In this document: piece by piece, positions 1,388-44,352 of the stretch
How the letters are laid out: every line of letters starts with the position of its first letter
How positions within the stretch are numbered: the stretch's first letter is position 1
IMG/VR virus record: IMGVR_UViG_3300020396_000292
Coordinates: 1-55,056 of that record
Source of the DNA: a virus
Reading direction: 5' to 3' (one strand)
DNA length: 55,056 nucleotides
Notes under the pieces: model-generated
The model's input: the letters and a program-made list of their open reading frames with translations, nothing else
Databases searched by the model: none
Told to the model about the DNA's origin: nothing
Made by a program: the position numbers and the translations under genes

Positions 1388-2989
1388 ATGCAAAATGGAT
1401 TTTCACCTAAGGAGCTTCGCTTCGGTAAGGATGGTAGGGATAAACTTATCTCAGGAATTACAAAATTATCAAACGCTGTTAAGAGCACTCTTGGTCCTCA
1501 AGGTAACACAGTGTTAATAGAATCAGAAGAACATGTTGGAGGCATTACTGTTACGAAAGATGGAGTAACTGTAGCTAGGTCTATTAACCTAATCGACCCT
1601 GTCGAGAACCTGGCGGTTCGTATGATGAAGGAGGCTGCTGATAAGACAGCTACTTCTGCTGGTGACGGAACTACAACTGCGATAGTATTAACTGAGGCTT
1701 TAGTTAAGATGGGTACGGAGCTTATAGGCGATGATGTAAACAGGACAGAGGTGCTTCGGCATATCAATGAAATTACGAAAGAGGTTGTACTTGGTCTGAA
1801 AGATGAATCTAAAAAATTATCAAAGAAGAAGATGAGGGACGTTGCTATTATATCAGCGAACAATGACAAGGACCTTGGTACTACAATAGCTAATGTATAT
1901 AAGCAGGTTGGTAAAGATGGTGTGGTTACTGTAGAGAAATCACAAACAAGTAAAACATATTATGAAACGACAGACGGAATAAAGATTGACAGAGGGTATT
2001 CGTCTCCGTTGTTTATTAACGACCAGAAAAAAGATGAGTGTGTGCTAGAGGATGTTTTTATTATGGTGTCTGATGCTGAGATAAGCAACATACTTCAGAT
2101 AGAAAATATACTAAAGCCAATCATCCAGAAGAACCAGAAGCTTCTTATCATAGCGCCAACATCTGTGAATGTAATAAACACATTGGCCGCTAATGTAATG
2201 AAGAACAATTTAAAGATATGTAATATCGCTCCACCAAACTTTGGATACAAGCAGCACGAGCTGATGCAGGACATTGCGTATACAGTAGGGGCAACATATT
2301 TTTCAGAGAAGACTGGGGATGACCTTAGCATTATAACCGCTGAGGATTTGGGTCATGCTGCCAAGGTGATAGTTGGTCGTGGCTCAACAGTTATCCTAAA
2401 GGATGATTCAGAAAAGAATAAAGACATAGACAAAAGAGTTAAAGAGCTTAGGGATGCATGTGATATAGCAAAAACAAAAAACGAAAAAGACTTTATCATG
2501 TCACGCATAGCTTCGCTAACTGGAGGTATAGGTGTCATATATGTAGGAGGAAACACAGACCTTGAACAGAAGGAGCTGTATGATAGAGTGGATGATGCGG
2601 TATGTGCGGTACGTTCAGCTCTAGAAGAGGGAATACTTCCTGGAGGTGGGATGACTCTTTGGACATTGGGATACGAAATATGTGAACCATGTTCACCGAC
2701 AGCCGATGAAAAGATTGCTGCCAATATAATGAAGTATGCTTTGCAAGCACCAGCTAGACAAATCATTGCTAACTCAGGAAAAGATTTTAAATCTATATAT
2801 CCTAAGCTACCATCCTCAGGAGAAGGTTATGATTTAAAGAATTCTAAATACGGAAACCTCATCGACATGGGAGTTATAGACCCGTTGAAAGTAACAAGGA
2901 CTGCACTTGAAAACGCAGTGTCGGTTGCGACTACTATACTTTCAACTAATGCTATTGTAACAATGGCACGTTCATACGAAACAAATTAA
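1388..2989 (+). CDS. groEL: Phage-encoded chaperonin GroEL (Cpn60)
   Basis: A 533-residue group I chaperonin: a ring ATPase that encloses and folds proteins with a GroES lid. Family signatures are present: STLGPQGN (33-40), TKDGVTVA (56-63), GDGTTT (92-97; D93 matches E. coli D87), the apical segment DRGYSSPLF, and the equatorial VDDAVCAVRSALEEG with D403 at the place of catalytic D398, followed by PGGGM. The intermediate and apical domains are complete, so it should be active. It ends shortly after the last helix (MARSYETN) and lacks the Gly-Gly-Met tail of most bacterial GroELs. In the apical substrate-binding segment, E. coli Tyr203 is replaced by Leu. Two small ORFs separate it from groES, which lies downstream rather than upstream as is usual in bacteria. 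It likely folds phage virion proteins or replaces host GroEL late in infection (inference). Confidence 0.97.
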   Translation: MQNGFSPKELRFGKDGRDKLISGITKLSNAVKSTLGPQGNTVLIESEEHVGGITVTKDGVTVARSINLIDPVENLAVRMMKEAADKTATSAGDGTTTAIVLTEALVKMGTELIGDDVNRTEVLRHINEITKEVVLGLKDESKKLSKKKMRDVAIISANNDKDLGTTIANVYKQVGKDGVVTVEKSQTSKTYYETTDGIKIDRGYSSPLFINDQKKDECVLEDVFIMVSDAEISNILQIENILKPIIQKNQKLLIIAPTSVNVINTLAANVMKNNLKICNIAPPNFGYKQHELMQDIAYTVGATYFSEKTGDDLSIITAEDLGHAAKVIVGRGSTVILKDDSEKNKDIDKRVKELRDACDIAKTKNEKDFIMSRIASLTGGIGVIYVGGNTDLEQKELYDRVDDAVCAVRSALEEGILPGGGMTLWTLGYEICEPCSPTADEKIAANIMKYALQAPARQIIANSGKDFKSIYPKLPSSGEGYDLKNSKYGNLIDMGVIDPLKVTRTALENAVSVATTILSTNAIVTMARSYETN

Positions 2990-3221: not shown

Positions 3222-3354
3222 TAAAGAAGCAATATGGGGAGCAGACCATAGCTATGAGGATTATGGATTAGAAGGCGAAGGAATAGTATCAAACCTTTCA
3301 TGCCCTAACGATGACTGCTCAGTAGAAACAATTTTAATTTATGAAACATTATGA
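3202..3354 (+). CDS. Small zinc-ribbon-like protein
   Basis: A 50-residue protein with a CPRC pair at residues 3-6 and a second pair CPNDDC around residues 34-39, the spacing of a four-cysteine zinc ribbon. The middle segment (DHSYEDYGLEGEG) is acidic and aromatic. It overlaps the preceding gene and its TGA overlaps the groES ATG (ATGA, 3351-3354), the classic arrangement for translational coupling. Zinc ribbons of this size bind nucleic acid or mediate protein contacts; which applies here is not visible. Confidence 0.75.
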   Translation: MNCPRCNKEAIWGADHSYEDYGLEGEGIVSNLSCPNDDCSVETILIYETL

Positions 3355-3608
3355 AACTAATAGGAAGAAACTTATTAATAACAGAAATTAAGGAAGAGGT
3401 TAAGACATCGTCAGGATTATTACTATCCACTGAAGACGTATCTAAATTTAGATACAGTAAAGGTAGAGTAGATAGTGTCGGGTCTGATGTTAATATAATT
3501 AATGCTGGAGATGAAATCTATTACGACAAGTCTAATAGCCACAAGATGATTATAAATGACGAGAAGTATACTATAATTCAAGAGTCTTCGGTTGTTGTAG
3601 TCCTATAA
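3351..3608 (+). CDS. groES: Phage-encoded co-chaperonin GroES (Cpn10)
   Basis: An 85-residue cpn10-fold protein, shorter than E. coli GroES (97). It has the opening beta-strand (LIGRNLLITEI), a mobile loop (about residues 17-34) with hydrophobic tripeptide LLL (23-25) in place of the GroEL-binding IVL, the GRVDSVG strand, the AGDEIYY segment equivalent to GD-I-V-F, and the terminal strand ending VVVVL. It caps the GroEL ring. Start ATG overlaps the zinc-ribbon stop. The end overlaps the convergent SET-domain gene by 6 bases, so expression of one strand may interfere with the other. Confidence 0.92.
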   Translation: MKLIGRNLLITEIKEEVKTSSGLLLSTEDVSKFRYSKGRVDSVGSDVNIINAGDEIYYDKSNSHKMIINDEKYTIIQESSVVVVL

Positions 3609-3986
3609 CTTTTCTGGATATAAAATATGTAATGAGTAGTTTAAAAACAGTTCTTCTCCTTTCAGTATTACTTGTGTTGCCTTTGCTACTAAGTCATTTG
3701 TTTCATTATATAAAAAACAAATATTGGGATAGTTAGAGTGGTTGGTGTATCTGCCTATGTATGTTTTATATTTATTATCTATAGAAGCCATTCCTATAAT
3801 TTCACCCTTAGCTATATCTTTCTTAGCGAACATACCGTATCCATGAACCTTTGATTGTTTACAGTAGACAGACTCGTAGTTTATTCTCACAACAGAACCA
3901 GTCTCTGATAATTCATCAAGTTCTTCTATTGTTATGTTCAGTGCATCAAGCGCAGGCTGAATGTCAAACTTATTTTTTTGATTCAC
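3603..3986 (-). CDS. Minimal SET-domain protein lysine methyltransferase
   Basis: A 127-residue protein whose last 90 residues form a compact SET domain. Visible motifs: HGYGMFA (48-54) with following KKDIAKGEIIG, the S-adenosylmethionine-binding RYTNHS (79-84) with PN at 87-88, the VAKATQVILKGEEL segment, and the closing tyrosine in LFLNYS (113-118). The SET-I insert between GEIIG and RYTNHS is reduced to about 14 residues. In size it resembles the chlorella virus vSET (119 residues), which methylates host histone H3. The expected activity is transfer of methyl groups to lysine side chains, but the target is unknown. Its start overlaps the end of the upstream winged-helix gene, so the two form an operon facing groES. 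A non-catalytic SET remnant cannot be excluded. Confidence 0.82.
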   Translation of the reverse strand: MNQKNKFDIQPALDALNITIEELDELSETGSVVRINYESVYCKQSKVHGYGMFAKKDIAKGEIIGMASIDNKYKTYIGRYTNHSNYPNICFLYNETNDLVAKATQVILKGEELFLNYSLHILYPEKL

Positions 3987-4401
3987 GAATTTCTTTATTA
4001 AGTTCTATTATAAAATTTCGATACACCTTGTCGGTGTATGATACGTTCTTGGCGAACATAGGATTAAAGGAAGTGCTTGTTGGAATTTCTTTTCCTTCTA
4101 GCTTATCGTATATACCGCTAATTATTCTTACGGTCTTATATGATAGCTGATAGATTCCTCTTTTGTTTTTAGAAGCTTTCCTAAATACTTCAATCCACTT
4201 ATCTCGAAGCAGCTTATCAAATCTATTAACGTCCCAAGACAGTAGTTCATCAAACTCTTCAAACCTGTCTTTAGAAAAATATTTTTCAGAGTAAAGAAAC
4301 AACAGCACATCTAAGTCTGCCTGTGTTAATCCATATTTAGCTTTTATAAAATATCGTATAACTCTCCAGTACTTTAGATAATTAGAATTAGAATTAGACA
4401 T
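3970..4401 (-). CDS. Winged-helix (MarR-like) protein
   Basis: A 143-residue protein starting MSNSNSNYLKYW. The pattern of a helix YGLTQADLDVLLFLYSE, a second helical region, then DKWIEVFRK followed by RGIYQLSYKTVRIISGIYDKL fits a MarR-type winged helix (recognition helix, wing, dimer helix). The C-terminal NPMF and YTDKVYR segments are features I recall from a conserved Bacteroidetes-phage family of unknown role. A longer frame extends upstream to 4782, but this ATG is preferred because the extension is hydrophobic, antisense to a real gene, and crosses the divergent promoter. It overlaps the SET gene by 17 bases and probably regulates it or the divergent small-protein cluster. Confidence 0.72.
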   Translation of the reverse strand: MSNSNSNYLKYWRVIRYFIKAKYGLTQADLDVLLFLYSEKYFSKDRFEEFDELLSWDVNRFDKLLRDKWIEVFRKASKNKRGIYQLSYKTVRIISGIYDKLEGKEIPTSTSFNPMFAKNVSYTDKVYRNFIIELNKEIRESKK

Positions 4402-4414
4402 AAATAAAATTTTG

Positions 4415-4422
4415 TAACTTTG
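4415..4422 (+). promoter_or_regulatory. Bacteroidetes -7 promoter element
   Basis: TAACTTTG is an exact TAnnTTTG match, 20 bases before the ATG at 4442, in the 40-base gap between the divergent winged-helix gene and the small-protein cluster. The winged-helix protein is a natural candidate regulator here. Confidence 0.6.
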
Positions 4423-4441
4423 CAATAAAGATAATAAAACT

Positions 4442-4672
4442 ATGCCAGATAAACCAGAAAAAGAAACGGGAAAAGAAACGGGGATTAATAAAGAAGCACT
4501 AGACGCTTTAAATTTTAAGAACAATATTCTAGCCAAACTTCGAGCGACTAAGAATAAAAAGAAGACTAATACTAAAAGTACAAATAAGAAAACAACAGCT
4601 TCTATACGGGGACTAGGAAGATTAGGACAACACTCTAAGGCGTATAGAAAAAGAAATACTAGAACAGCATAA
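4442..4672 (+). CDS. Lysine-rich small protein
   Basis: A 76-residue, strongly basic protein: an acidic-basic N-terminus (PDKPEKETGKETG), then a Lys/Thr-rich tract (KNKKKTNTKSTNKKTT) and a Gly/Arg C-terminus. It looks disordered and nucleic-acid-binding, like a histone tail. It is the first gene of the plus-strand small-protein run, and its stop overlaps the next start (TAATG). No family is recognised. Confidence 0.7.
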   Translation: MPDKPEKETGKETGINKEALDALNFKNNILAKLRATKNKKKTNTKSTNKKTTASIRGLGRLGQHSKAYRKRNTRTA

Positions 4673-13570: not shown

Positions 13571-13795
13571 ATGGATATAAGAAAAATATCTGTCGGTCCA
13601 GATTATAAGTCTGGGGCTATGCATTACTTAGTAGGTCAGAACGTGTTGAATGGAGCATACAAGATTCATTTAATAAAGTACGACTCTTTATTACACTCCT
13701 ACAAGATTTACATAGAAGAAGACGATGTTGTTGTTCTTTGGAAAGAGTTTAGCTCTGCTATGCCTGTGTCCATTGAATACAACATAAACTTTTGA
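13571..13795 (+). CDS. Small hypothetical protein upstream of packaging genes
   Basis: A 74-residue protein (MDIRKISVGPDYKSGAMHYLVGQ...). It mixes short beta-strand patterns (YKIHLIKYD, YKIYIEEDD, VSIEYNINF) with no motif I can name. The conserved-looking GPDYKSGAMHY segment suggests a structural constraint. It overlaps the next gene by 3 bases at a TTGA junction and probably belongs to the packaging operon. Confidence 0.6.
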   Translation: MDIRKISVGPDYKSGAMHYLVGQNVLNGAYKIHLIKYDSLLHSYKIYIEEDDVVVLWKEFSSAMPVSIEYNINF

Positions 13796-14355
13796 AATCA
13801 CCAACAGACTTTATAGTAACCCCCAGAGAAAATAAAAGATACTCCAATACTAAAAACATTGGAGGTATAGACTTTTTAGTTAGCTCTTCAGAGGAGGACG
13901 TAAGATATTCAAATAGGTATGCTGAAGTAAAGGCGTTACCTATAGATTATTCTGGTCCCATAAAAGAAGGAGACACCCTCCTTGTTCATCACAATGTTTT
14001 TAAATTCTACAATGACATCAGGGGTCAAAGGAGAAGTGGTAAAAGTTTTTTAAAAGACAACCTATTCTTAGTAGACCATGACCAGTACTTTGCTTACAAG
14101 CAAGATGATGTATGGTATGCTCATGACAGGTACTGCTATATTAAGCCAGTGAAAACAAAGGAGTCTGTTATATTTAAGAATACAAAAGAAGAACCCTTAG
14201 TTGGATTAGTTGAGATTCCAAATGAAAAATTAAGTAGTCAAGGAATTAAGAAAGGAGATTTAATTTCTTTTAAGCCTGATAGTGAGTATGAGTTTGAGGT
14301 TGATGGAGAAAAACTTTATCGTATGTTCGACCATCAAATAATAATGATACTATGA
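13792..14355 (+). CDS. GroES-like (cpn10-fold) protein in the packaging operon
   Basis: A 187-residue protein. The C-terminal 36 residues (152-187: IKKGDLISF, EFEVDGEKLYRM, QIIMIL) match cpn10 segment by segment: the GD-x-I-x-F strand, the D/N-G-E-x-Y strand and the hydrophobic final strand. The same order occurs in the phage GroES at 3351. A second GD-x-L-L-V strand (IKEGDTLLVHH, 57-67) and a later VDHDQYFAYKQ suggest another cpn10-like half or an enlarged mobile-loop region. It starts at TTG (13792) overlapping the previous TGA, since no ATG lies nearby. It is possibly a virion-assembly co-chaperone like T4 gp31, or a cpn10-fold structural protein. The fold call comes from motif order alone. 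Confidence 0.55.
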   Translation: MKSPTDFIVTPRENKRYSNTKNIGGIDFLVSSSEEDVRYSNRYAEVKALPIDYSGPIKEGDTLLVHHNVFKFYNDIRGQRRSGKSFLKDNLFLVDHDQYFAYKQDDVWYAHDRYCYIKPVKTKESVIFKNTKEEPLVGLVEIPNEKLSSQGIKKGDLISFKPDSEYEFEVDGEKLYRMFDHQIIMIL

Positions 14356-29789: not shown

Positions 29790-30596
29790 ATGGAAGAAAA
29801 CTTTTTATACACATTAACATACAGCACATCCTCTAAGGGGTGGCCTTCTTTTTATTCTTACTACCCTGAGATTATAAAAGGAATGAATCAGTTTATGTAC
29901 AGCTTTAAAGGAGGCAACCTTTACGAGCACAATACAAACGAGGTAAGAAATAATTTTTACGGAGAGCAGGGGGTTTCTACATTGACAAGTATATTTAATG
30001 ACAGTCCTCTGGAAAATAAAAAATTTAAAACAATTGCTCTAGAGGGGGATGACGCTTGGACTGGAACTTTTATAACAGATTTACAGACTACAGGAATTAT
30101 TGACTACTCTGAGTTTGAGAAGAAGGAAGGTGACTGGTTTTCTTACATTAGAAATGAAGGAAGTGTTCCAGCTAATTCAGACCAATATCCTTTACGTTCA
30201 TTAACAGGCGTTGGTGTGAGTGATAGTATACAGGTTGGACTTGTAGGTACAGAGATTACGTTTGTTCCTCCAACCATATTAGACTCAATGATTTCCATTG
30301 GCGATGCTTTTTATTTTGGAGTTGATATTTTAGGGGTGCTACAACCAAGCTTAGCAGGTGTAATTACGTCAGTTGTTCTCTCAAACAATGGAACATCTAA
30401 GGTTGTAATCAACACCTCTATTCCAGGAGCAGGACCTATACCATCAGATAATGAATATTTTTTATACATTAAAAATTCTATAGCAGAGTCTCAGGGCGTG
30501 ATGGGTCATTTTTGTGAGTTCACATTAACAAACGATAACACATCGGCCACAGAACTATTTGCTGTAAAAAGTCAAGTGTTTAAAAGTTTCCCATAA
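29790..30596 (+). CDS. Putative tail protein
   Basis: A 268-residue protein (MEENFLYTLTYSTSSKGWPSF...). It opens with a hydrophobic-aromatic segment and has a GNLYEHNTNEVRNNFYGEQG motif, which I recall from tail-associated proteins in Bacteroidetes phages, and then repeating beta-strand patterns. It is probably a tail or baseplate-like protein between the nozzle and the ejection proteins. Confidence 0.55.
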   Translation: MEENFLYTLTYSTSSKGWPSFYSYYPEIIKGMNQFMYSFKGGNLYEHNTNEVRNNFYGEQGVSTLTSIFNDSPLENKKFKTIALEGDDAWTGTFITDLQTTGIIDYSEFEKKEGDWFSYIRNEGSVPANSDQYPLRSLTGVGVSDSIQVGLVGTEITFVPPTILDSMISIGDAFYFGVDILGVLQPSLAGVITSVVLSNNGTSKVVINTSIPGAGPIPSDNEYFLYIKNSIAESQGVMGHFCEFTLTNDNTSATELFAVKSQVFKSFP

Positions 30597-30618: not shown

Positions 30619-31140
30619 ATGAGTATATTAAGTATCTTTAAGAAAAAGAAACCAGAAAGCATACTAGAATATGTTCATGATAATAGGGGTGTTCTTTGGG
30701 ATAATATTAAGTTGTTTAAAGAAAACCTTGTATTACACGATGATGCTGTTGCGCACCATACTCCAGAAATGAATGAGTTAATGCCAGTGAGTCATCATTT
30801 AAAAGACGGGCTGTACACCAGAGAAATATATATGCCTAAGGGCACGTTGGTGGTAAGCTTTATTCATAAGCAAAATCACCCTTCCTTTTTTTTAAAAGGA
30901 GAGATGTCAGTTTTACTAGATACAGGAGAGGTTAAAAAAATAAAAGCCCCTATGAAAGTAATGACTGAGATAGGGACACAAAGAGTTGCTTATATTCATG
31001 AGGATACAACTTGGGTTTGTGTTTACAGAACAGACGCGACAACAGTAGAAGAGGCTGAGAAAGAAGTTTATACAGAAGACTATAAAGAACTTCCTGAGCA
31101 CGTTATATTAAATAAAAAATTATTATGTCAGGAGCAATAG
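30619..31140 (+). CDS. Cupin-like protein
   Basis: A 173-residue protein. The middle (LYTREIYMPKGTLVVSFIHK, FFLKGEMSVLLDTGEVKKI, GTQRVAYIHEDTTWVCVYRT) matches a cupin beta-barrel: the first motif G(X)5HXH is degenerate, the second is recognisable (GEMSVLL, TWVCVY). Charged N- and C-terminal helices flank it. The catalytic role is uncertain because the metal-binding histidines are incomplete. It begins the transcription unit of the ejection proteins and overlaps the next gene by 16 bases. It may be a virion or assembly accessory. Confidence 0.6.
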   Translation: MSILSIFKKKKPESILEYVHDNRGVLWDNIKLFKENLVLHDDAVAHHTPEMNELMPVSHHLKDGLYTREIYMPKGTLVVSFIHKQNHPSFFLKGEMSVLLDTGEVKKIKAPMKVMTEIGTQRVAYIHEDTTWVCVYRTDATTVEEAEKEVYTEDYKELPEHVILNKKLLCQEQ

Positions 31141-32006
31141 CAGCATTAGCAATAACAGTAGGAACCACCACCATGGGGTTTATTAAGGCAGGTAAAGAAA
31201 AAAGAGCAGCAGAGGCAGCAGAACTGTCAGCGGATATTGCAATGGCAGAGGTTGAAAAAGCTTTAACTAAAAACGAAATGGACGCCCTGTCTCTTCAGAC
31301 AGAGGCTTATGATAGAGAGGCAGACAACATAAAGACAGCAACTAAAACTGAGATGGACGCTATTCGAGAAGGTGACCAGCGTGGAGTATTAGCTGGAAGC
31401 AGTAGGGTAAAAGCTGGTGTAACTGAAGCAGAAGCAGGCTCAAGAGTGGGTATGGCAGCAGAGTTGGGAGACCTTGAGAAACTTTCCGCTGATGAGGAAA
31501 CTAGAAAAAATGATATAGGAATTCAAATAAAACTTGGAGAAGCGGCAGGTGCTCAGCAAGCAGCCGCTGCTTTATCAGATTCTGCTTCTGCAGGTAATGC
31601 CGCAGCAATGCAGGGTGTTGCAAGTGCAGCAATGCAGGGTGCAAACATGGCTACAAAAAGTACCTACGGTAAGTCAGGCGAAGCCAAAAAAGCACAAAGA
31701 AAACAAAATAAATTTGTTAGACAGACACGAAGAGATTCTAATTTATCAAGAAAAGATTTTAACGCTCAGGTACTTCCAGGTTTGCAGGGTGATTATCAAA
31801 ACCAAATATCTGGCTTAACTCTAGGAGGAACACTTCCAAATAAAATGGTAAACACACAGGGTAAAGATGGAGTTGTTGTTTCAGAAGTTGCAAGAACAGA
31901 CCTGAGTGATATTAAAGATATGACTGAGATGGAGTTTAATGCTTTTATGATGGAGCTTACGCCTGAACAACGAAATTCAGTATATTCTCAAATGAATCAA
32001 AACTAA
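31125..32006 (+). CDS. Putative ejection protein 1 (T7 gp14-like position)
   Basis: A 293-residue protein with a short N-terminal hydrophobic segment (IAALAITVGTTTMGFIKAG), a long Ala/Glu/Lys-rich helical body and a basic C-terminus (KAQRKQNKFVRQTRR). In T7 the ejection proteins gp14, gp15 and gp16 are stored in the capsid and form a channel in the host envelope; gp14 is the smallest and outer-membrane-facing. Size, order and hydrophobic N-terminus agree, but identity to gp14 is not visible. Overlaps the cupin gene. Confidence 0.5.
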   Translation: MSGAIAALAITVGTTTMGFIKAGKEKRAAEAAELSADIAMAEVEKALTKNEMDALSLQTEAYDREADNIKTATKTEMDAIREGDQRGVLAGSSRVKAGVTEAEAGSRVGMAAELGDLEKLSADEETRKNDIGIQIKLGEAAGAQQAAAALSDSASAGNAAAMQGVASAAMQGANMATKSTYGKSGEAKKAQRKQNKFVRQTRRDSNLSRKDFNAQVLPGLQGDYQNQISGLTLGGTLPNKMVNTQGKDGVVVSEVARTDLSDIKDMTEMEFNAFMMELTPEQRNSVYSQMNQN

Positions 32007-34002: not shown

Positions 34003-37000
34003 ATGTTGAATATAGATAAAGAGCAGTTAGAGCAGTCACACAGAATGTTTGTGGCCGAGGGTTACAAAGGAAGCCTGGAACAGTTTTCAGAACTAATGAA
34101 GAATAATCCTGCAGCATTAAACGACATGTTCGGTCTTTATGTACAGGCAGGCTATCGTGATTCAAAGGATTCTTATGCAGAGTTGATTGGAGCAAAGCCT
34201 CCAAAGACAGTAAAAAAAAAAGTTGTTACGGAATCCAATGTGGAAGATGGTTCTTTGGATTCGTCAGAAACTGATGGTTCACCAATACAAAACCCAACTG
34301 AAGCTGAGTTAGAAAATCTTCTTAAAGCTCCCCAAACACAAGCGCAGGAGCCTACAGGAATGTATCCTGATATTGATGAGGTGAACGCTTATCGGGAACA
34401 AGAAACTTCTACTGCAGGAGATACCTTTGACGTGCTAAAAGCACAAAATGAGATTTACCAGCAGCAGAGACCTGAGGACATGGCTATTTTCCTGGCCGAA
34501 GAACAAGAAAGAAAAAACCTTGAAGAACAGCAGAGGCAAGACAGCTTATCACTTCAACTAGAAGGCGATGCCTTTCTTCAGGACCTTTCAGTTATTAATA
34601 CTGAACTTATAAAGCAGGATGAAGAGACTGCAATTGCTTTACTAAGAAGCAAATTTCTAAAATACGGATTTACATTTGAGAAGACTGGCATGGGCGATGC
34701 TGTTATTGTTTCAAACTTTGATGGAACAGCTACCGAGACCATAGACCTACAACCATTTTTTTCATCGTCTGAAGTACTAGAGTCTAAGAAACTAAAAGAC
34801 TTTATAACCAACAACGCTAAGCAAGAGTATCAAGACAATGAGTTTGATGACCTTGCTTTTCAATCAGACAAGGCACAGAACCTACGTATAGCTCCAAGAA
34901 TAAATGAAGACGGAACTGAGTCTACAGTTCTTATGACAGACTACGAGGCCAACGGTAGATTTTATGCTATACCTACGCTGTTTCCTAAGAACCCTAGTTT
35001 TTATGGAAGTAAACCTAAAGACTGGCTTGAACTTGATTTTGAAGAAGCTAAAAAGTTAGCTGAAGAAAGAGGTGAGGTCTTTGAGTTTGAAACCGCAGAA
35101 CAAGCAGCTAAATTTGCTGAAGGTTCTTGGAAAGATACTCACGCAACAAACGTAATAGGTAAACAATTATATTCTGAAGCTGGTTTAAACTTTGCAGCAG
35201 AGGATGATAAGTACCAGCAGTACATTAAAGCTAGAGATACTAGAATATTTTTAAATGAACAGGTAGATGATTTAGGTAGAGATTTAATTAGCGAACTGAC
35301 ACCAGAGGAAAAAGAATTGTACGGTGGTTATTATGTAAACGGAGTACTCAGAGACGATGCTGCTCAGATTGCAAAAGAACAACGAGAAATAGAAAACAAT
35401 CTATACCTTGAGGTTAATAGCGAAGAAAAGATTAAGCTCAGAGAAGATTTTGATATTAAGACACACGAAAAATACGAAGCCTTATCTCAGAAAGCAGCTA
35501 AAGATAACAGACAATTACTGTTTGCTCAGGATGAGCTAGAGGTTTTATCTTTAAAAGAGTTTGGTGTTCCTGTCAAAGACCTAAACAATGTCGTACCTGC
35601 AAATGAAACACAAGCAAAGCTAATAGACGACCTTAGAATACAGACAAAATCTATAAATGTAGAGAGACAGCACGCTGCTGATTTATACGAAACAGCTAAG
35701 ACTTTTTACAGTGCTAAGTATGACAAATCAATAACCCAGGATATGGAGGATGGGGCGGCTGCCGTCTACAAAGAACTACGCGCTGGACTAAACGATGGAA
35801 ACGCATCTGAAGTTATACTTCAGCTAAGTACGGGGATGCCTTTTGATTTTCAGAACTTAGATATTAACAACGAAGAAGATGTTAAGAAAGCGGCTGAAAT
35901 GATATCTGCATTAAAAGGAAAAAATCAAGGCAGAAAGCAATCTAGACAGTTGTCAAGGTGGAACAGGGCTACAGGATTTAGAGAAAGTCTTGATGCCTTT
36001 AACGCCAACCCCCTTGAAACAGCTTTTGTTATGGCCATAAACTCTATAGGTATGATGCTTCCTTACGGAGCAGAACTTGTGGCGGCTGGTACGGTAACAG
36101 GTGCTGGTATTGGGGCAGGAGTAGGAGCTGCAGGTGGTGGTGTTGGAGCTGTTCCTGGAGCTATTTTTGGTATGAGACAGGGAATGAAGACAGGTATGGC
36201 AATGACATCTTTTGCTATGGAGTATACCAACGAGTTCTTTGCAGCTATGGAGGACAAAGGATTAGATGTTCTAAACCCACAGGATGTAGTTACTGCTGTA
36301 AACGACCCAGAGATTTGGGCAACAGCAAAAGAAAGAGGTATAGCACGAGGTGTTCCAATTGCTCTTGTAGATTTTATAACCGCAGGTGCTGCTGGTCGTG
36401 TATTTAAGGTTGGTAAAACAGCCTCAACAACAAGAAAGATTGTAACTCAGACGGCAGAGCGTCTTGTATTTGACCCTCTTGCAGAAATGACTGGAGAAGG
36501 ACTTGCTCAAATTAGTGTTGGTGATGAATTAGATTTTAAAGAAATAGCTGCAGAAGGTATTGGTGGTTTTGGAAACAACACATCAAGCATGATAGTCAAC
36601 AAGGTGATGGATATAAAAAAAATGAGTAAGATAGAGCTTGCCTCTAAGCTTACCGAGATGGATTTTATAGTTCAGGAATTGTCACAGGAAAGCGACACAA
36701 GGGTATCTGCGTGGACAAATAATATGCTTGAGCTTGGACAAATTAATGCAGACCAGGCGCAACGAATACAAAAAAACTTAGGACTTTCTAAGGACGCAGA
36801 CAACATGCTTGAGTTTGGCATAGATAAGAACAGCGAAAAAAATACACTTGTAAAGACCAGGCTTATGCAGCTGCTGTCCGCTAAAGAAGAGTACTCTGCA
36901 GACACTAACCGTAAAGAAGTATTCGGTCAGAAGATTAAAGATATTAATGCAGAGATTGCGTTTTTAATAGAGAATAAAAAACTAGCTCCCGAAAACATTA

Positions 37001-40000
37001 AAGCAAAAATAGAAGCTATATTTTCTCCAGGTGTTGAGACCACTGACACAAGGGCCGCGCTATCTCAGTATGTGATAGACGGAAAAACCTATAGCAGAAG
37101 TGAGTTTTTAAAGAAGCTTGGTAGAATGAATGCTCGTCAGCTTACTGAGTTTAATGGTAAGGTTGCCAATGATAAAGAAGTTACTAATATATTAAATGAA
37201 AAATTAGATGCCGTTCAAATCAAAGAAACAGAGAGCGTGGATGCACGCGAACAAACCGAAGATAGCACAGGAGTGGGAGAAGGAGTATCCATCGAAGAAA
37301 CCCCAGGGGTTGAGACCACCGAAACGAAACAGTTAGTATTCAAAACCCCTGACGAAGCTGCCATATCTCCAGAGCAAAGAGAAATTTTTGGAGACACACA
37401 CACAGACAAAAGACTTCCTGGTAAGGCAGCTATAAAAGAAATCACAGATGCTGATGACCAAGGAGTTGCTACAGCCACATACGTAAATCAGGACACAGGA
37501 ATTGTTGATGCTATAATTAGTAGCACAGACGAAAATAATTTTGTTGGATACGTTAGGGTATATGAAGATGGCAAGGCAACAAATATGTTCTCCGCTAAGA
37601 TGGAGTCTACTGGAACAGCGTTCAAGAATATGATTACATCTGCTGAGGCTACACTACCAGATAATTCAGAGGTTGTGGAAACCAGTTCAATATCTGTAGG
37701 AGGATTAAAGTCCTTCAACAAATCTAACATGGATACTAAAGTTGATTCAGATGGTAATGTTGTCACTAGAAAAACAGCATATAGTAATGCAACAAAAGAA
37801 TCTGTAGCTGAAAAAGGTCAAGAGGCTTACAATAATTATTCAACCACAGAACTTGTTGAGGCTGAGGCTGAACTTGCTAAGATTGAGGCTGCCTACCCAG
37901 GTATAACCGCAACGATAAAGAAAAAGAAATCACCTCCTTCTCCACCGCCTAGGCCTGGAGAAAAGAAAGTGCCAAGAAAACCTAATACTTATAGTATTGA
38001 TATTGATTTACCTGTTATGGTTAAATCAAAGGCAAGCACAAAGACAACAACAGATACAAAGACAAAGGCAGAAACCATAGTTGCTGTGGCTCCGTTCTTT
38101 GATACCACAATTAAAACAGTTGAGGACGCTGTTGCCTTAAGAAAAACTAAAGAGTACCAGGCTTACAAAGAAAACTTAACCGCTATTGGAGAGCAGCTTG
38201 GTGTTGAGGTTGAGATTGAAGAAGGTATAGGTGGATACAAGAACGATGCTGGAAAAGAGATAGTTGAGATATCAACAAGGGTAGTGCTTAAGGATGCTTC
38301 AATAGAGCAGGCTCAAGAGTACGCTGCAATCTCAGCTGCGTTAGCTCCTGAAACTCAGGAGAGTAGCATAGCCGCAGAGTACGTAGAGGAGGGCTCTAAG
38401 GAGCACAACGGGAACGAGTATGTTCTTACCGTATCAGATAGTCAGGGTGTTATAAATGCATTAGAAAAAGCAGGCATAACAGACTTCAGTATCAATGAAG
38501 ATACAGGGGAGGTAAGTTTCATAAATATATTTGAATTTGATAACCCAGAACTACAAGATAAAATTGGTATCTTTGTAGAAGAATTAGAAGCTAACAACAT
38601 TACTTATGATAAACAAAGCTACCGACCAGTCAACTCCATCTATGTCGACCAGGGAAAAAGGAAAGAAATTCTTAGAAAGTCTGCGAGCAAACGGTCCCAA
38701 GACAGACAAACTGGGGGAGACCTTTATAGCACGCTCCTCAAAGCAATAGAGAACGACTCTAAGTTTGAGGGTGTTACTACCGAAGAATACTATTCAGGGT
38801 TTGAAGAACTCAAAGCAAGCGAGACAGCTGCAGCTCAAGAGGTTGCAGACCTAGAGGCAGACTTAGAATCAGAGTTTGAGAACGATGCCAATGTTGACTT
38901 CAAGTTAAAGGAGGAGCAGAGTAAAGAAGGATTCGCAGACGTGAATGAAATTGTTGAGGCAATGTCCGAAGATACGGATGGTGCGGTTGTCGAGATAACC
39001 GAGACAAACCCTAATGCTCCTAAGATTGATGTACAAGAACTAAACGAAAGATTAAAGAAGGACGGAGGAAGACCACTGCCTATTGTTTCAATAGATGTCA
39101 TTGATGGTATACCTACCATGTTCAGTATATCAGACCAGCTTAGAACTGGTAACGTAGTTAACCCATCCACAGGAAAGGTTATAAAAAATTTAAAGGGTGG
39201 TCTAGGATTTAACGGTGTGAAGGGTCATGAGAATCTTGCATGGGCAAGCATCGATACGAACACAGTCAAAGGCCAAATTTCTACAGCCACTAAGATATAC
39301 AATAACAACAAAGAACTTTTTAAGAATTGGTGGGCAGCTAATCCTGAGTATAACGGATTAGTTCCTATGTCAATTGTTAAGATGGAGACAGACTCTATAC
39401 TTAGCAATGAAGCTGTTGTTCGTGTAATGGCTGACAACATATCCTCGTTCCCTAAGGCTCAGAGAGTAGAAGCTTTGAATGTTTTTAGAGAGAGATTAGA
39501 AACAAAAAAAACCAAGCTACAGCAAGCTATAAAAGATGGAGTGGGTTTATCTGGCAAGGCGGTAAAACCTAGTACACTTAAGCAGTACGCTGAGCAAATA
39601 AAATCTATTGAGGATGTACAGAAAATGGATAAAAAAGTTAAGGCGAAAACTATAGATGGTTTACTAACGCCCAAAGCTTTAAAAAATCTAAAAGCTATAA
39701 CATCGGTCAATATAATCACAGGTAATCTAGGATATGGTAAGCCCAACAGCCCTACTGGTAAAGCAGTAAAACCTGGTACCCCATCGAATCCTGTTGCTAA
39801 AGCATTGCTTGGTGAAAAACCTTCAGCAGAAAGTAAAGCTAAACTACACCTTGGTTCTATCACTGATGTTCTTACAGAGCCTCAGCTTAAAAATACTCCT
39901 GTGCGCTCAGTATTTACAATCACAGGTATTGATGTTCTGAATCCTGGTATTGAAAAAACTAACCACCCAAACTATCCTGTTGGTCCTAGAGGAAAAATAA

Positions 40001-43000
40001 TAGGTGTTATAGAGCAGCCTCAATCTGTTCTTGAATTGTTTCCTTCTGCATATAATAATGCCGTACTTGGTAAAGCTAAAGAAGATGCAGGACAAAACAG
40101 AAAAAGGTCAGATAAGAAAAGATTATCTGAGGTTGTGCCTGTTCAAATGGGTATGACTAACAGAGAGTTCCAAGGAACTATTGTTGGTGTGACTGAAGAG
40201 GCTAGGCTTTTAGATTTTATGAACCGAAGCTTTCCTTTTGTTAATATATCTACCGACCAGGCCACTATGAACCAGTTGTTAGAGAGCCCTGACGTAACAG
40301 CTTATCTAAGAGGAGATTCAGTTGTGTATGGTATGACTAAGGATGGCAACATCTTTATTAATAAAGAAGTTCACGACTCAAAGTCTGAGCTGTACAACAC
40401 AGCTATTCATGAGATGGGTCATGTGTGGGTAAAGCATCTATCATTAACACCTAAGGGTAAGAAAATATATCAGCGTGGTGCAGAGATTGTACAGCAGACT
40501 GAGCTGTATAAGAAATTACTCAAGCGTTTTGATGGTGATGTAAACAAGGCTACTGAAGAAGCAATGGCAACACTCATCGGTAACAGAGGTGAGAGCGTAG
40601 TGGATGCGAGTTTGCAGCAGAAGGTTAAGGATTGGATTACTGCGGTGTGGGATTATGTAAGACAGGAATTTAAACTGTCTAAGGACCTAACAACAGAGGA
40701 GATTCAAGACCTAACAATGGATGAATTCCTAGGTACTGCAATGGCAGATATCTTTAGCGGTAAACCTATTAAGCTAACTGATGCTCAGTTAAAAACTTTC
40801 TCGACAGAACTTAAGGAAGCTATGCTTAAGTCTGACCAGAGTATGGCTTCTATAATAGAAACTGGTAGAAGAAACGGATTCTCAGATGCATCTATTAAAG
40901 CGGTACTTAAAGAAAGAAAGTTTCCAGCAGCAGATATAGCTGCTGCTATGGAAGTTAAGGTAGATGTGTTTACACAATTACCCGAAGCGTTTGGTAGGGT
41001 TGAAGGTGGTGTCAGTGAGGGGATGAAATTATATAGTGAGGTTAGACAAGCGGTATCTGACTTTGCATCCAAAGGTAAGACAATGGCAGAGGTTAGACAG
41101 AAAGCCATGGACCTGATGAAAGCTAATCCTATATACCAGGCTCAGCAAGAGCAGGTTCAGATGGAGCTTATGGTAGACTTTGACAAGACTTTAAATAGTC
41201 GCGCTAATGTTTCGGTGCAGAAAGAAATATCAGCTATTAGGAATAGCCTAAACCAGCGTAAGATAAATGAGAAGAATCTTAGGGCTTCACAGACTCAGCT
41301 TAAAAACTTTATAAGAAAGCAATTACCAAAGTCTAAAACATATACTCAGGCTCAAATAAATAAACTTATATCTAGGGTTGGTAAATCTACAGTTGATACA
41401 TTTCAGGCAGACACTGAGTATGTTATGAAAATTGTAGATAAGCAGAAGGCTAATATGCAGAAGGCTTTAGTTAAGGATATACTCAAGCTTGTTAAGTCAA
41501 AAGCCATGACAGCATTTACCAAGTCACGTAAGCGTAGAGCTAAAGGACTAAGTAAAGAGGGGCAGAGTTATTTCAACGCTGTCAAGCAGGTGCTAACCGC
41601 TGATGCTGATACGCTGCTTGATATACAACAGAAGCTTCAGAAAGAATCTGTAGAAATAAGTAACCTTATACAGAAACAATTAGACTTAAAGGCTATATCC
41701 CTAGCGAAGCAGAAAACTCAAGCTGGTAAAGAGTTATTAAAAAAACTAACTCTTACACAAAAAGAGCAGGCTCTATTAAACTTAGCGTTAGCATTTGATA
41801 CCTTTGGAGACGTTTCTAATTTGAGTCTTGAAGAAACTCAAGCCTTAATGCAGCAACTAAAAGATACTAAGGCTGAGTCTATCGCTGTGTTTAAGTCCAG
41901 AAGACTAGCAAGAGCTGAGGCTAACAAGAAAATGAAGGAGGAGGCTGATGCTCAGATTAAGGATACAAATCCTTTGCTCTTTGATGAGGATGGCAATGTT
42001 ATTAATGATGAACAGCGTTTAGCTAGGAGAGATAAAATACTTTCTCACTTCAGAAACTTTGAACTAGGAAAAGGATTCTCTACATTAGCTCAAAGCATGA
42101 GGTTTTCTAATGCTAGTAGCTATATTAAAAACTTTAAGTTGATGCTTCAGCATCTTGGTACCCTAAGCAATACTCTTGATAGGGTAACCAAAGGAAGGGA
42201 CTTCTTTACTAAGAATGTTTATGACGCTCTCAATAGAATGGATGACATAAGTATTGGTGGAGTTTACCAAACAAGACAGAAGCTTGATGACATTGCAAAT
42301 ACAATCCCTGGTATTACCAAAGGGATGAAACAAATATACCGAAAACTAAACACTGGCACTCATGAGCTTGTGTTAAAGAGAGGTGATACAGGAACAGAGT
42401 ACACTGATATATTTAATTCAGACCAGCTGATGCGTATATACGCACTTAGTTTGAACGATGTTCAAAGACAGAAGCTTGAGGCTCAAGGCATAACCCCTGA
42501 AACTATAGAGAGTATTAAAAATATTATAGGTCCAGAGGCGGTAGAATTTGCGGAGAAATCTGTTGACTTTCTAAGTAATGAATACTATGAGAGCGTTAAC
42601 AATGTTTACTCCTACGTCAATGATGTAAACCTAGGGTATGTAAACAACTACTTCCCAACGGCTACCATGTCAGCGGATACTTCAGCTGACATGATAAAGG
42701 GTGGAGACTTTAGCGGTGTGTTTAATTCTGAGACCTCTCCTGCTTTTAAAGAAAGAAGCAATAAGACTTCCGATATTAAATTAAAGGAATATGACTTTAC
42801 ATCTGTTCTTAATAATCATATTGAGAGCATGGAGAAGTATAAGGCTTATGCTGTAGGAACGCAGAGGCTAAACAACTTATTTAAGATTGAATCTGTACGT
42901 CAATTACTTAAAGAGACAGGTGTTGATGGTGCTATGAGGAAGGCTGTAAACTTTGCTATTAATCCAGACTCTGGAAAGGATGCTTCAGGAAATTTAAAAC

Positions 43001-44352
43001 TAATAAGCAAACTACAATCTAAGTTCACAGGATTTGCCTTGGCATTTAAGACTATACAAATACTTAAGCAGGCTACTTCTTTTGTAAACGCCTTTGAAGA
43101 CTACAGTTATTTTCCTCCGAACTCTAAGGTTCCTCGTGTAATTAGGAAGGCTGTTGACTATCCAATGTTTATGATTGATGGCGCGGCTAACGTACTATCT
43201 TTAGCTAAAGATTTAGTTGGAATGAAAGGACCTGTGCGACAGGCTATGGAGATATCTCCTACATTCAGGAAGAGGATAGAGCAGGGTATAGAGGGTGATG
43301 TGTACGGGCTAGAGTCTGGAGGGAAAACATTTAAGAAGAAATCATTGACAGGAGGTAAGCGTAAAAGAGCACAGCAAGGATTTAAAACAGCGGCTGCTGC
43401 TCCTACTGTGATTGGAGATGTGCTTGGTGTTATGGGTTACATGATTAACTATAAGCGTAACATAAAAAATGGTATGAGTAAGGCTGATGCTTTAAAAGCA
43501 TTTAACAATTACAATCCTACTCAGCAATCAAGAAGAGGAACAGATAAGATTCCTTTACAGATGAACAGCACTGTTTTTCAAAGAGCTTTTACCATGTTCG
43601 GTAGTACATTGTACCTTCAGATTAACAAGGTTATGCAGAGCACAACTAACATATCAAGAAGTATATCTCAAGGAAAAATGCCGCGCTCAAAAGACACGAG
43701 AGGTTTAGCATTAAACATGGCTGTAGCCAACGTACTGTTTGTTGGCGTATCTAACATAGCTAAGTTTGTGAAGGGAGATGACGAGGATAAAGATGCGGCA
43801 CTTATGAAAATGGCAGAGGCTATGATGGGACTTAATCTTATATACCAAATCCCATTTGTTGGCGGTACTATAGAAGGATTTGATGTTGCTGGTAGAATAA
43901 TATCTGGTGTACAAGGAGAGGAGTACAAAGAAGAAGGCCTTAGGTTTAGCGGTGACGTTGTTGACCCTCTAGCCAGTGTGGTATCTAAGTACAGAAAGCT
44001 TACTAAGAAAGATATAGGAGAAGTAGAGGCCGCACTTAGGGTACTAACAGAGATAACTATAGGGGCACAGCTCGACCCTTTCATTGGGTTATACAATATG
44101 TTTGGCGGTGAAGAGGAAGACCTTGATGATGCTACGTATGATGTTATGGGTATCTCTCCGTCTTACAGACCGAAGAATGAAGGAGGAGGAACATACACAC
44201 CAATGAGTAAGACCAAATTGAAGTCAATGTTTCCTGACATTTATAAGGATAAGTATGGTCCTGGAGGAACAAATGAAGATGCGGAAGAAATAAAGTCAGA
44301 TATTAGAAAGATGAAAAGAGATTTGAAGAAAGAAATATATGACGACTTTTAA
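34003..44352 (+). CDS. Giant virion protein with metalloprotease motif (large polyvalent protein)
   Basis: A 3449-residue protein. The N-terminus (1-60) has two related segments around AEGYKGSLEQFSELM and QAGYRDSKDSYAEL. About 300-385 is a domain with FYAIPTLFPKNP and AAKFAEGSWKD patterns seen in phage polyvalent proteins. About 676-740 is a Gly/Ala-zipper hydrophobic stretch (TGAGIGAGVGAAGGG) that could span a membrane. A Pro-rich linker (PPSPPPRPG) lies near 1311. HEMGH (2136-2140) plus a downstream EAMATLIG with E2186 is a gluzincin-type zinc protease. A hydrophobic region lies near 3235. Giant proteins of this kind are carried in virions and injected. Its size matches the N4 virion RNA polymerase, but no RNA polymerase motif was found by eye. 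Confidence 0.75.
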   Translation: MLNIDKEQLEQSHRMFVAEGYKGSLEQFSELMKNNPAALNDMFGLYVQAGYRDSKDSYAELIGAKPPKTVKKKVVTESNVEDGSLDSSETDGSPIQNPTEAELENLLKAPQTQAQEPTGMYPDIDEVNAYREQETSTAGDTFDVLKAQNEIYQQQRPEDMAIFLAEEQERKNLEEQQRQDSLSLQLEGDAFLQDLSVINTELIKQDEETAIALLRSKFLKYGFTFEKTGMGDAVIVSNFDGTATETIDLQPFFSSSEVLESKKLKDFITNNAKQEYQDNEFDDLAFQSDKAQNLRIAPRINEDGTESTVLMTDYEANGRFYAIPTLFPKNPSFYGSKPKDWLELDFEEAKKLAEERGEVFEFETAEQAAKFAEGSWKDTHATNVIGKQLYSEAGLNFAAEDDKYQQYIKARDTRIFLNEQVDDLGRDLISELTPEEKELYGGYYVNGVLRDDAAQIAKEQREIENNLYLEVNSEEKIKLREDFDIKTHEKYEALSQKAAKDNRQLLFAQDELEVLSLKEFGVPVKDLNNVVPANETQAKLIDDLRIQTKSINVERQHAADLYETAKTFYSAKYDKSITQDMEDGAAAVYKELRAGLNDGNASEVILQLSTGMPFDFQNLDINNEEDVKKAAEMISALKGKNQGRKQSRQLSRWNRATGFRESLDAFNANPLETAFVMAINSIGMMLPYGAELVAAGTVTGAGIGAGVGAAGGGVGAVPGAIFGMRQGMKTGMAMTSFAMEYTNEFFAAMEDKGLDVLNPQDVVTAVNDPEIWATAKERGIARGVPIALVDFITAGAAGRVFKVGKTASTTRKIVTQTAERLVFDPLAEMTGEGLAQISVGDELDFKEIAAEGIGGFGNNTSSMIVNKVMDIKKMSKIELASKLTEMDFIVQELSQESDTRVSAWTNNMLELGQINADQAQRIQKNLGLSKDADNMLEFGIDKNSEKNTLVKTRLMQLLSAKEEYSADTNRKEVFGQKIKDINAEIAFLIENKKLAPENIKAKIEAIFSPGVETTDTRAALSQYVIDGKTYSRSEFLKKLGRMNARQLTEFNGKVANDKEVTNILNEKLDAVQIKETESVDAREQTEDSTGVGEGVSIEETPGVETTETKQLVFKTPDEAAISPEQREIFGDTHTDKRLPGKAAIKEITDADDQGVATATYVNQDTGIVDAIISSTDENNFVGYVRVYEDGKATNMFSAKMESTGTAFKNMITSAEATLPDNSEVVETSSISVGGLKSFNKSNMDTKVDSDGNVVTRKTAYSNATKESVAEKGQEAYNNYSTTELVEAEAELAKIEAAYPGITATIKKKKSPPSPPPRPGEKKVPRKPNTYSIDIDLPVMVKSKASTKTTTDTKTKAETIVAVAPFFDTTIKTVEDAVALRKTKEYQAYKENLTAIGEQLGVEVEIEEGIGGYKNDAGKEIVEISTRVVLKDASIEQAQEYAAISAALAPETQESSIAAEYVEEGSKEHNGNEYVLTVSDSQGVINALEKAGITDFSINEDTGEVSFINIFEFDNPELQDKIGIFVEELEANNITYDKQSYRPVNSIYVDQGKRKEILRKSASKRSQDRQTGGDLYSTLLKAIENDSKFEGVTTEEYYSGFEELKASETAAAQEVADLEADLESEFENDANVDFKLKEEQSKEGFADVNEIVEAMSEDTDGAVVEITETNPNAPKIDVQELNERLKKDGGRPLPIVSIDVIDGIPTMFSISDQLRTGNVVNPSTGKVIKNLKGGLGFNGVKGHENLAWASIDTNTVKGQISTATKIYNNNKELFKNWWAANPEYNGLVPMSIVKMETDSILSNEAVVRVMADNISSFPKAQRVEALNVFRERLETKKTKLQQAIKDGVGLSGKAVKPSTLKQYAEQIKSIEDVQKMDKKVKAKTIDGLLTPKALKNLKAITSVNIITGNLGYGKPNSPTGKAVKPGTPSNPVAKALLGEKPSAESKAKLHLGSITDVLTEPQLKNTPVRSVFTITGIDVLNPGIEKTNHPNYPVGPRGKIIGVIEQPQSVLELFPSAYNNAVLGKAKEDAGQNRKRSDKKRLSEVVPVQMGMTNREFQGTIVGVTEEARLLDFMNRSFPFVNISTDQATMNQLLESPDVTAYLRGDSVVYGMTKDGNIFINKEVHDSKSELYNTAIHEMGHVWVKHLSLTPKGKKIYQRGAEIVQQTELYKKLLKRFDGDVNKATEEAMATLIGNRGESVVDASLQQKVKDWITAVWDYVRQEFKLSKDLTTEEIQDLTMDEFLGTAMADIFSGKPIKLTDAQLKTFSTELKEAMLKSDQSMASIIETGRRNGFSDASIKAVLKERKFPAADIAAAMEVKVDVFTQLPEAFGRVEGGVSEGMKLYSEVRQAVSDFASKGKTMAEVRQKAMDLMKANPIYQAQQEQVQMELMVDFDKTLNSRANVSVQKEISAIRNSLNQRKINEKNLRASQTQLKNFIRKQLPKSKTYTQAQINKLISRVGKSTVDTFQADTEYVMKIVDKQKANMQKALVKDILKLVKSKAMTAFTKSRKRRAKGLSKEGQSYFNAVKQVLTADADTLLDIQQKLQKESVEISNLIQKQLDLKAISLAKQKTQAGKELLKKLTLTQKEQALLNLALAFDTFGDVSNLSLEETQALMQQLKDTKAESIAVFKSRRLARAEANKKMKEEADAQIKDTNPLLFDEDGNVINDEQRLARRDKILSHFRNFELGKGFSTLAQSMRFSNASSYIKNFKLMLQHLGTLSNTLDRVTKGRDFFTKNVYDALNRMDDISIGGVYQTRQKLDDIANTIPGITKGMKQIYRKLNTGTHELVLKRGDTGTEYTDIFNSDQLMRIYALSLNDVQRQKLEAQGITPETIESIKNIIGPEAVEFAEKSVDFLSNEYYESVNNVYSYVNDVNLGYVNNYFPTATMSADTSADMIKGGDFSGVFNSETSPAFKERSNKTSDIKLKEYDFTSVLNNHIESMEKYKAYAVGTQRLNNLFKIESVRQLLKETGVDGAMRKAVNFAINPDSGKDASGNLKLISKLQSKFTGFALAFKTIQILKQATSFVNAFEDYSYFPPNSKVPRVIRKAVDYPMFMIDGAANVLSLAKDLVGMKGPVRQAMEISPTFRKRIEQGIEGDVYGLESGGKTFKKKSLTGGKRKRAQQGFKTAAAAPTVIGDVLGVMGYMINYKRNIKNGMSKADALKAFNNYNPTQQSRRGTDKIPLQMNSTVFQRAFTMFGSTLYLQINKVMQSTTNISRSISQGKMPRSKDTRGLALNMAVANVLFVGVSNIAKFVKGDDEDKDAALMKMAEAMMGLNLIYQIPFVGGTIEGFDVAGRIISGVQGEEYKEEGLRFSGDVVDPLASVVSKYRKLTKKDIGEVEAALRVLTEITIGAQLDPFIGLYNMFGGEEEDLDDATYDVMGISPSYRPKNEGGGTYTPMSKTKLKSMFPDIYKDKYGPGGTNEDAEEIKSDIRKMKRDLKKEIYDDF

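Follow-up and report, generated by a model that had tools for sequence, protein, structure and literature searches.

The small SET-domain gene of the virus sequence analysed here (a 55,056-base virus record from IMG/VR, taken whole and called the window) is linked to the widespread cupin-SET family of phage proteins, phrog_34170, which are usually encoded beside ejection-type genes; the link is new, and phrog_34170 is a family without assigned function. By profile, by a common linker and by an unrooted tree, the window SET appears to belong with the C-terminal half of these fusion proteins. As the best explanation of the whole, held tentatively and with rather less than even confidence, we propose that the SET protein is an accessory phage protein-lysine methyltransferase whose substrate would be a virion or ejection protein, and that it may act with a cupin protein encoded elsewhere in the window.

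The terminase of the window is closest to that of MW202828 (76%), followed by those of the Flavobacterium elemo phages (46%), and of the 87 phage records that match it, only MW202828 does not bear the name of Flavobacterium, Cellulophaga, Tenacibaculum or Maribacter. A crAss-type muzzle domain is found at 29790-30596 (E 5.4e-17). According to an excerpt of an earlier report (PMC5332604), marine relatives of Cellulophaga phage phi38:1 were already known to carry GroEL. Near the terminase gene, the window also carries a second GroES-like gene (13792-14355, plus strand; phrog_13932, co-chaperonin GroES, E 7.8e-25), and in phi38:1, too, a gene annotated as co-chaperonin GroES immediately precedes the terminase.

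The SET gene and its immediate neighbours

Four features make up the locus:

1388-2989, plus strand: groEL (Cpn60), 533 aa; Pfam Cpn60 E 3e-58, phrog_5725 E 3e-135
3351-3608, plus strand: groES (Cpn10), 85 aa; Pfam Cpn10 E 2.6e-10
3603-3986, minus strand: minimal SET-domain protein, 127 aa, GTG start; identified by Pfam, AlphaFold, Foldseek/VIA and the C-terminal half of phrog_34170
3970-4401, minus strand: putative winged-helix (MarR/SarA-like) protein, 143 aa; sub-threshold HTH matches, convergent groES neighbour

The first-pass annotation, made from the letters alone, had read the 127-residue protein as a minimal SET methyltransferase with almost no SET-I insert, and this identity is confirmed. 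The protein matches PF00856 (E 3.3e-11; 44 bits, above the Pfam cut-off of 22.4), and all four motifs were found: HGYGMFA (48-54), RYTNHS (79-84), PN (87-88) and NYS (116-118). The GxG, NHS..PN and C-terminal Tyr motifs that mark a SET domain are present and near-invariant in 42 relatives; in an alignment of these 42 chosen phage SETs (alignment A5), S45, G51, T75, G78, N82, H83, N88 and E112 are invariant, while G49, P87 and Y117 (the last of which we take to be the position of the catalytic Tyr) are kept in at least 90%. With an alignment of 42 phage SETs as input, AlphaFold predicted a SET fold (pLDDT 91.5, pTM 0.83), and the top Foldseek match of the model is vSET (3kma, E 1.2e-5); by title, the matches by Foldseek (50 listed) and VIA are SET/PR-domain methyltransferases or complexes containing one (best Z 11.1). 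A partial NCBIfam match to a Legionella SET protein, below its cut-off (20.6 bits against 550), was taken as a shared SET motif, and PADLOC, run on five proteins, gave no defence-system match.

Small size is also confirmed. VIA aligns residues 35-117 with vSET (Z 10.5, 83 residues, rmsd 2.2), and since the vSET chain has 105 residues, the SET-I region, normally part of the substrate groove, is very short, and the core is shorter even than that of vSET. The short N-terminal region consists of two helices (10-16 and 20-27). Like the window SET, vSET (PBCV-1 A612L; 3kma, 1n3j) is a small single-domain viral SET protein; its chain exceeds the matched core by about 20 residues, it comes from a virus of a eukaryote, and it is named a histone H3-Lys27 methyltransferase.

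Pairwise dN/dS of the SET gene (0.08-0.36; 15 pairs, six sequences) indicates purifying selection; the corresponding values are 0.05-0.12 for the upstream gene and 0.07-0.20 for groES (8 computable of 10 pairs in each case). The SET gene is therefore a real, selected gene, less constrained than its upstream neighbour.

The annotation was also correct on the coordinates of the gene, on its convergence on groES and on the 6-nt overlap of the two tails (3603-3608). At its other end the SET gene overlaps the upstream gene on the same strand by 17 nt (3970-3986), and through this overlap it is probably coupled in translation to the putative winged-helix gene. A programmed frameshift from the upstream ORF into SET was considered and rejected: SET is read in the +1 frame with respect to the upstream ORF, and hence the A7 run before the stop does not fit as a -1 slippery site, and coupling by overlap is the simpler account. 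The suggested operon with a MarR-like partner is accordingly upheld as to arrangement, whereas the label 'MarR-like' stands on sub-threshold matches: the upstream protein matches Pfam SarA/Rot with E 0.023 and 15.2 bits (cut-off 27), it matches PDB entries of the Rot/MarR type by profile at E 0.1-0.3, and two of seven members of its family match SarA/Rot (best E 0.0085). Because all these helix-turn-helix matches are below threshold, we consider a winged helix no more than likely for the 143-aa protein. On the plus strand, at about 4415-4440, an element TAACTTTG is present upstream of an ORF at 4442; we take it to resemble the Bacteroidota -7 promoter motif.

Cupin-SET fusions and the ejection-type genes

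In PHROGs, the window SET matches phrog_34170 (E 1.1e-12) at positions 155-256 of 296; two window genes match the family when compared together, SET at 154-254 and a cupin gene at 35-144. This cupin gene and the gene after it are as follows:

30619-31140, plus strand: stand-alone cupin-fold protein, 173 aa; phrog_34170 positions 35-143, E 1.4e-19
31125-32006, plus strand: ejection-type virion protein with an MSG... N-terminus; phrog_13764 virion structural protein, E 2e-5

The named records matching most of phrog_34170 are Pseudoalteromonas phage PH1 gp49, Rhodoferax phage P26218 gp30, MW202744 and phage zth2-2; in the MW202744 record, the protein is already labelled by reference to the structure of the PBCV-1 histone methyltransferase. 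The PH1, P26218 and MW202744 proteins have the same SET type and helical N-terminal linker as the window protein, but in them SET is fused to a cupin, whereas in the window the two domains are separate genes (3603-3986 and 30619-31140), 27 kb apart. The first half of the fusions forms a domain of its own, with relatives among proteins annotated as short tail fibre or tail fibre adhesin. The window cupin protein is recognizably of this kind: it shares 28-30% identity with three fusions in BLASTP (E 5e-18 to 5e-14), and its AlphaFold model (pLDDT 86.6) contains a cupin barrel (Foldseek cupins, E 8.4e-7; VIA Z 10.7, 97 residues, rmsd 2.2).

A search of IMG/VR with the three fusions returned at least 553 relatives of either half, among at least 599 stretches, and in all 80 loci kept from it a single ORF contains the two domains. 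When 84,980 bacterial and archaeal genomes were searched for the pattern of the same alignment, four loci were found, two of which cover both halves. The earlier statement that SET proteins are rare in phages thus holds for named records, where 14 of 50,697 match the window SET, and fails for viral metagenomes. In MW202557 (locus L037, 4001-4833) an unannotated 300-aa frame matches both the cupin and the SET halves and, judged by these matches, is a cupin-SET gene that the annotators of the record overlooked. A literature search, at the level of titles and abstract openings, found no paper dealing with phage proteins of the cupin-SET type; an unstudied SET-domain ORF is mentioned in one phage paper, in the portion available (PMC9025141).

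Motifs are well kept in the fused SETs of the 80 loci: 74 have NHS (73 by pattern, one by eye), 73 have GxGxF, and the E..Y motif is present in 79. The other six have NHA, and Rhodoferax phage P26218 has PS for PN; these departures, together with the very short SET-I region, are what might be expected if the fold were no longer catalytic and served as a binding module. We regard that as quite unlikely, since 42 diverse sequences show little or no variation at the SAM-pocket and Tyr positions, and the intactness of these positions argues for catalysis.

Other phages carry stand-alone minimal SETs whose motifs are as in the window protein (P-SSM7 PSSM7_204 and Kolga gp27, 99-102 aa). These cyanophage and pelagiphage proteins nevertheless form a separate branch: in an unrooted tree of 48 SETs, six of them are divided by a 100/100 branch from the fusions and the SETs of the window's own phage family, and ten family SETs fall together on one side of a 100/98 branch. 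The helical N-terminal linker, common to family SETs and fusions, was not found in the cyanophage and pelagiphage SETs compared, and the inspected stretches around them (P-SSM7, Kolga) contain no annotated cupin or chaperonin. Pairwise identities of the window SET are 28-34% to the cyanophage and pelagiphage SETs and 26-31% to the fusions, so that identity taken by itself gives the fusions no advantage. Our reading is that the family SETs and the cupin-SET type would share one origin, followed by relocation.

The genes of phrog_34170 mostly adjoin ejection-type genes; by contrast, the window SET is flanked by the upstream gene and groES, and it is the cupin gene that keeps the position directly upstream of the ejection-type gene, whose ATG overlaps it by 16 nt. 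In all 26 fused loci examined (of 46 non-redundant ones), an ORF beginning MS (25) or MA (1) follows the cupin-SET gene directly, its start lying between -13 and +6 nt of the end of that gene; one of the 26 ORFs runs off its locus. Ten such ORFs were scanned; eight have matches among DNA-ejection, internal-virion or virion-structural families, one matches an unknown family and one has no match. A similar ORF follows the stand-alone cupin, in the window's phage and in others, in 18 of 19 loci (start -37 to +6 nt; the nineteenth stops too soon). The window gene at 31125-32006 is called putatively ejection-type by this position and by its phrog_13764 match, homology to the DNA-ejection family phrog_598 being at most possible. 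Among named phages with a cupin alone, the next gene is annotated as DNA ejection (BA3, VPMS1), structural (X14) or hypothetical (Vibrio phage 1.067). In Alteromonas phage H4/4, by contrast, the cupin has no ejection neighbour and is flanked by RNA polymerase and head-tail adaptor genes, so that the link of cupin and ejection gene is usual, not universal. Downstream of the ejection-type gene, the window encodes a 3449-aa protein (34003-44352, plus strand), whose only Pfam match is DUF6861 (E 1.2e-6) and which is possibly an injected giant protein.

The cupin frequently occurs without SET. No SET was found in 15 of 20 cupin-bearing records (among 48 records, some of them chosen for cupin), nor in any of the five named cupin phages searched (BA3, VPMS1, X14, H4/4 and 1.067), and in one 62-kb record (G022) SET is present but no cupin was found. 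Of the 30 records that the upstream gene retrieved and that reach 40 kb or more, four have SET and cupin, one SET only, two cupin only and 23 neither; two 46-kb records (G042, G043) may miss the groE locus, so that their lack of SET is unsure. Co-occurrence was set aside as proof of interaction, since the kinship-aware test, with only five pairs (on average 1.3 changing the same way and 0.5 the other way, median p 1), cannot reach 0.05 and so does not decide the matter.

Positions of SET and the chaperonin genes

A total of 80 viral loci were found with the upstream protein; near-copies are included, so the counts are not independent. The upstream gene and groES are convergent, tail to tail, in 76 of the 80, and the other four stretches stop before groES. 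SET lies between the two in nine loci and is absent from between them in 67. The winged-helix/SET/groES order that had been put forward for a survey is therefore not the conserved arrangement; the conserved unit is the pair of upstream gene and groES. The records MW202828, Panino and elemoF carry the upstream gene, with convergent groES-groEL kept in MW202828 and elemoF and with groEL a few genes from the upstream gene in Panino; the cassette of the flavobacterial phages (the elemo phages and MW202828) resembles the window in its order of upstream gene, groES and groEL, but differs from it in that a PF00856 search of the MW202828, Panino and elemoF records found no SET.

Two further observations concern the pair itself. 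Where SET is absent, the tails of the upstream gene and groES overlap by about 32-38 nt in 52 of the 67 loci (L135-L202; estimated from domain edges, near-copies included), and such a near-constant antisense overlap of two ORFs is unusual. In G038, a close relative, about 210 nt separate the upstream gene from groES (L127, 6430-6640) without SET, and a six-frame reading of this gap showed no SET remnant.

SET itself is sparsely distributed and is found at several places. PF00856 was found in eight of 48 whole records, and in five of the 30 records of at least 40 kb that were chosen by the upstream gene alone. The family SETs form one clade at five or more gene positions, of which two touch groE genes; whole-record scans found four positions besides the groES-side one, three of them away from groEL and groES. 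In G040 and G041 SET immediately precedes groEL and shares its strand; it stands directly after a primase/helicase-type gene in G028, directly upstream of an amidase in G052, and, in G022, one gene before the terminase gene and one ORF from a homologue of the second GroES-like gene. Its presence and absence require seven state changes on a TerL tree of 40 records. Two close relatives, G004 and G039, are 93.9% identical over 799 aligned sites of this locus, and in G039 a gap of 361 nt removes SET but keeps its first codons and both neighbouring genes; this is a recent deletion with a scar. Given the several positions, the seven changes and the deletion, SET is an accessory gene, and its adjacency to the chaperonin is one position among several.

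That SET and the putative winged-helix protein form a regulatory pair, in which SET modifies the regulator or transcription proteins, might be suggested by their 17-nt same-strand overlap and by the occurrence of this order in nine of the 80 loci; it is very improbable, as the upstream gene lacks an adjoining SET in 67, SET is found at four positions away from it, and the dN/dS range of the upstream gene lies below that of SET.

The first-pass annotation had also raised the chaperonin itself as a target, and a SET enzyme methylating the phage GroEL or GroES would tune the folding of virion proteins. Position lends this some weight: SET touches groES in the window clade and groEL in G040/G041, and in G022 it is close to the second GroES-like gene. 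Two of five positions adjoin groEL or groES (P 0.027), and three of five lie within one gene of groEL, groES or the second GroES-like gene (P 0.034), but P rises to 0.069 when slots adjoining the second GroES-like gene are also counted; all these values are post hoc, over 55 ORFs with slots set by hand. Moreover, according to the text available of a 2026 study, the GroEL of phi38:1 bears dimethyl-lysines in virocells and virions (PMC13288928); however, no SET was found in phi38:1. The 67 loci where the pair stands convergent without SET, the three positions elsewhere, the survival of both neighbours in G039 after SET was lost, and the lack of an annotated chaperonin within 3-4 kb of the inspected fused, cyanophage and pelagiphage SET genes all tell against it. 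Because SET occupies several positions and the upstream gene/groES pair is the conserved unit, chaperonin methylation, once the leading reading, was demoted; the functional link is weak and we judge it unlikely. As the relatives of SET are fused to a protein encoded beside DNA-injection machinery, the folding machine next door is probably not its main partner, and the cupin-SET fusion beside ejection genes is the stronger functional lead.

Candidate substrates and methyl marks

In the explanation that we favour, the window gene would encode a minimal SET enzyme that is active and transfers methyl groups from SAM to protein lysines, a stand-alone counterpart of the C-terminal half of the cupin-SET proteins that many podovirus-type phages encode in their DNA-ejection module. 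In the Bacteroidota phage family it would be an accessory gene that has taken several positions and been lost at least once, and that at the window locus rides behind the putative winged-helix gene. Lysines of a virion or ejection-module protein would be methylated during assembly. With SET-I so reduced, the substrate groove is perhaps completed by another surface, one that the cupin could supply; the cupin protein at 30619-31140 perhaps offers such a docking surface in trans, which the fusions would carry in cis. Counting against this explanation, the window SET lies outside the ejection module, and two of the five SET positions touch groE genes.

The same enzyme might instead methylate host proteins (of the nucleoid, translation, the envelope or defence) and so favour infection, with the link to ejection genes reflecting early delivery or shared descent. 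An accessory gene as patchy as this one, with its seven state changes on the TerL tree, is what a host-interaction gene would look like; in the available portions of two papers, host protein methylation is up in infected Cellulophaga (PMC13288928), and archaeal SET enzymes methylate chromatin proteins, as Go1-SET does MC1-alpha (PMC3980110). Neither homology nor context indicates a host target, though, and the fused relatives examined adjoin ejection-type genes; we consider this reading possible but, on balance, rather unlikely.

Methylation of phage proteins is itself on record. Stai et al. 2026 (PMC13288928), in the part of the article available, describe phage proteins methylated on lysine and arginine, both in infected cells and in free virions, for three marine phages; in this marine Bacteroidota system, methylated lysines occur on phage capsid proteins and on phi38:1 GroEL, in infected cells and virions alike, and that text states that no methyltransferase gene is known from any of the phages studied. 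In our searches no SET was found in phi38:1 with PF00856, nor in phi38:1 and phi18:1 with alignment A5 and phrog_34170. Since phi38:1 proteins are methylated although no SET was found, such marks can arise without a phage SET, and this weakens any claim that a SET of the window type is needed for GroEL methylation.

More broadly, and as a doubtful conjecture, many podovirus-type phages would carry a lysine methyltransferase in their DNA-ejection module, possibly packaged and injected, of which the window's family would have a split version, with the cupin beside the ejection-type gene and a roaming SET acting in trans. We know of no virion-module protein methyltransferase in phages, and a literature search, within the parts of papers it covered, found none.

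What can be said plainly is that many podovirus-type phages encode SET-type proteins with intact motifs, usually beside ejection-type genes and mostly annotated as hypothetical. The SET-bearing phages described here encode a candidate enzyme for methyl marks of the kind seen on phage proteins; and as PH1 and P26218 are isolates with cultured hosts, the source and the purpose of virion methyl marks are directly testable.
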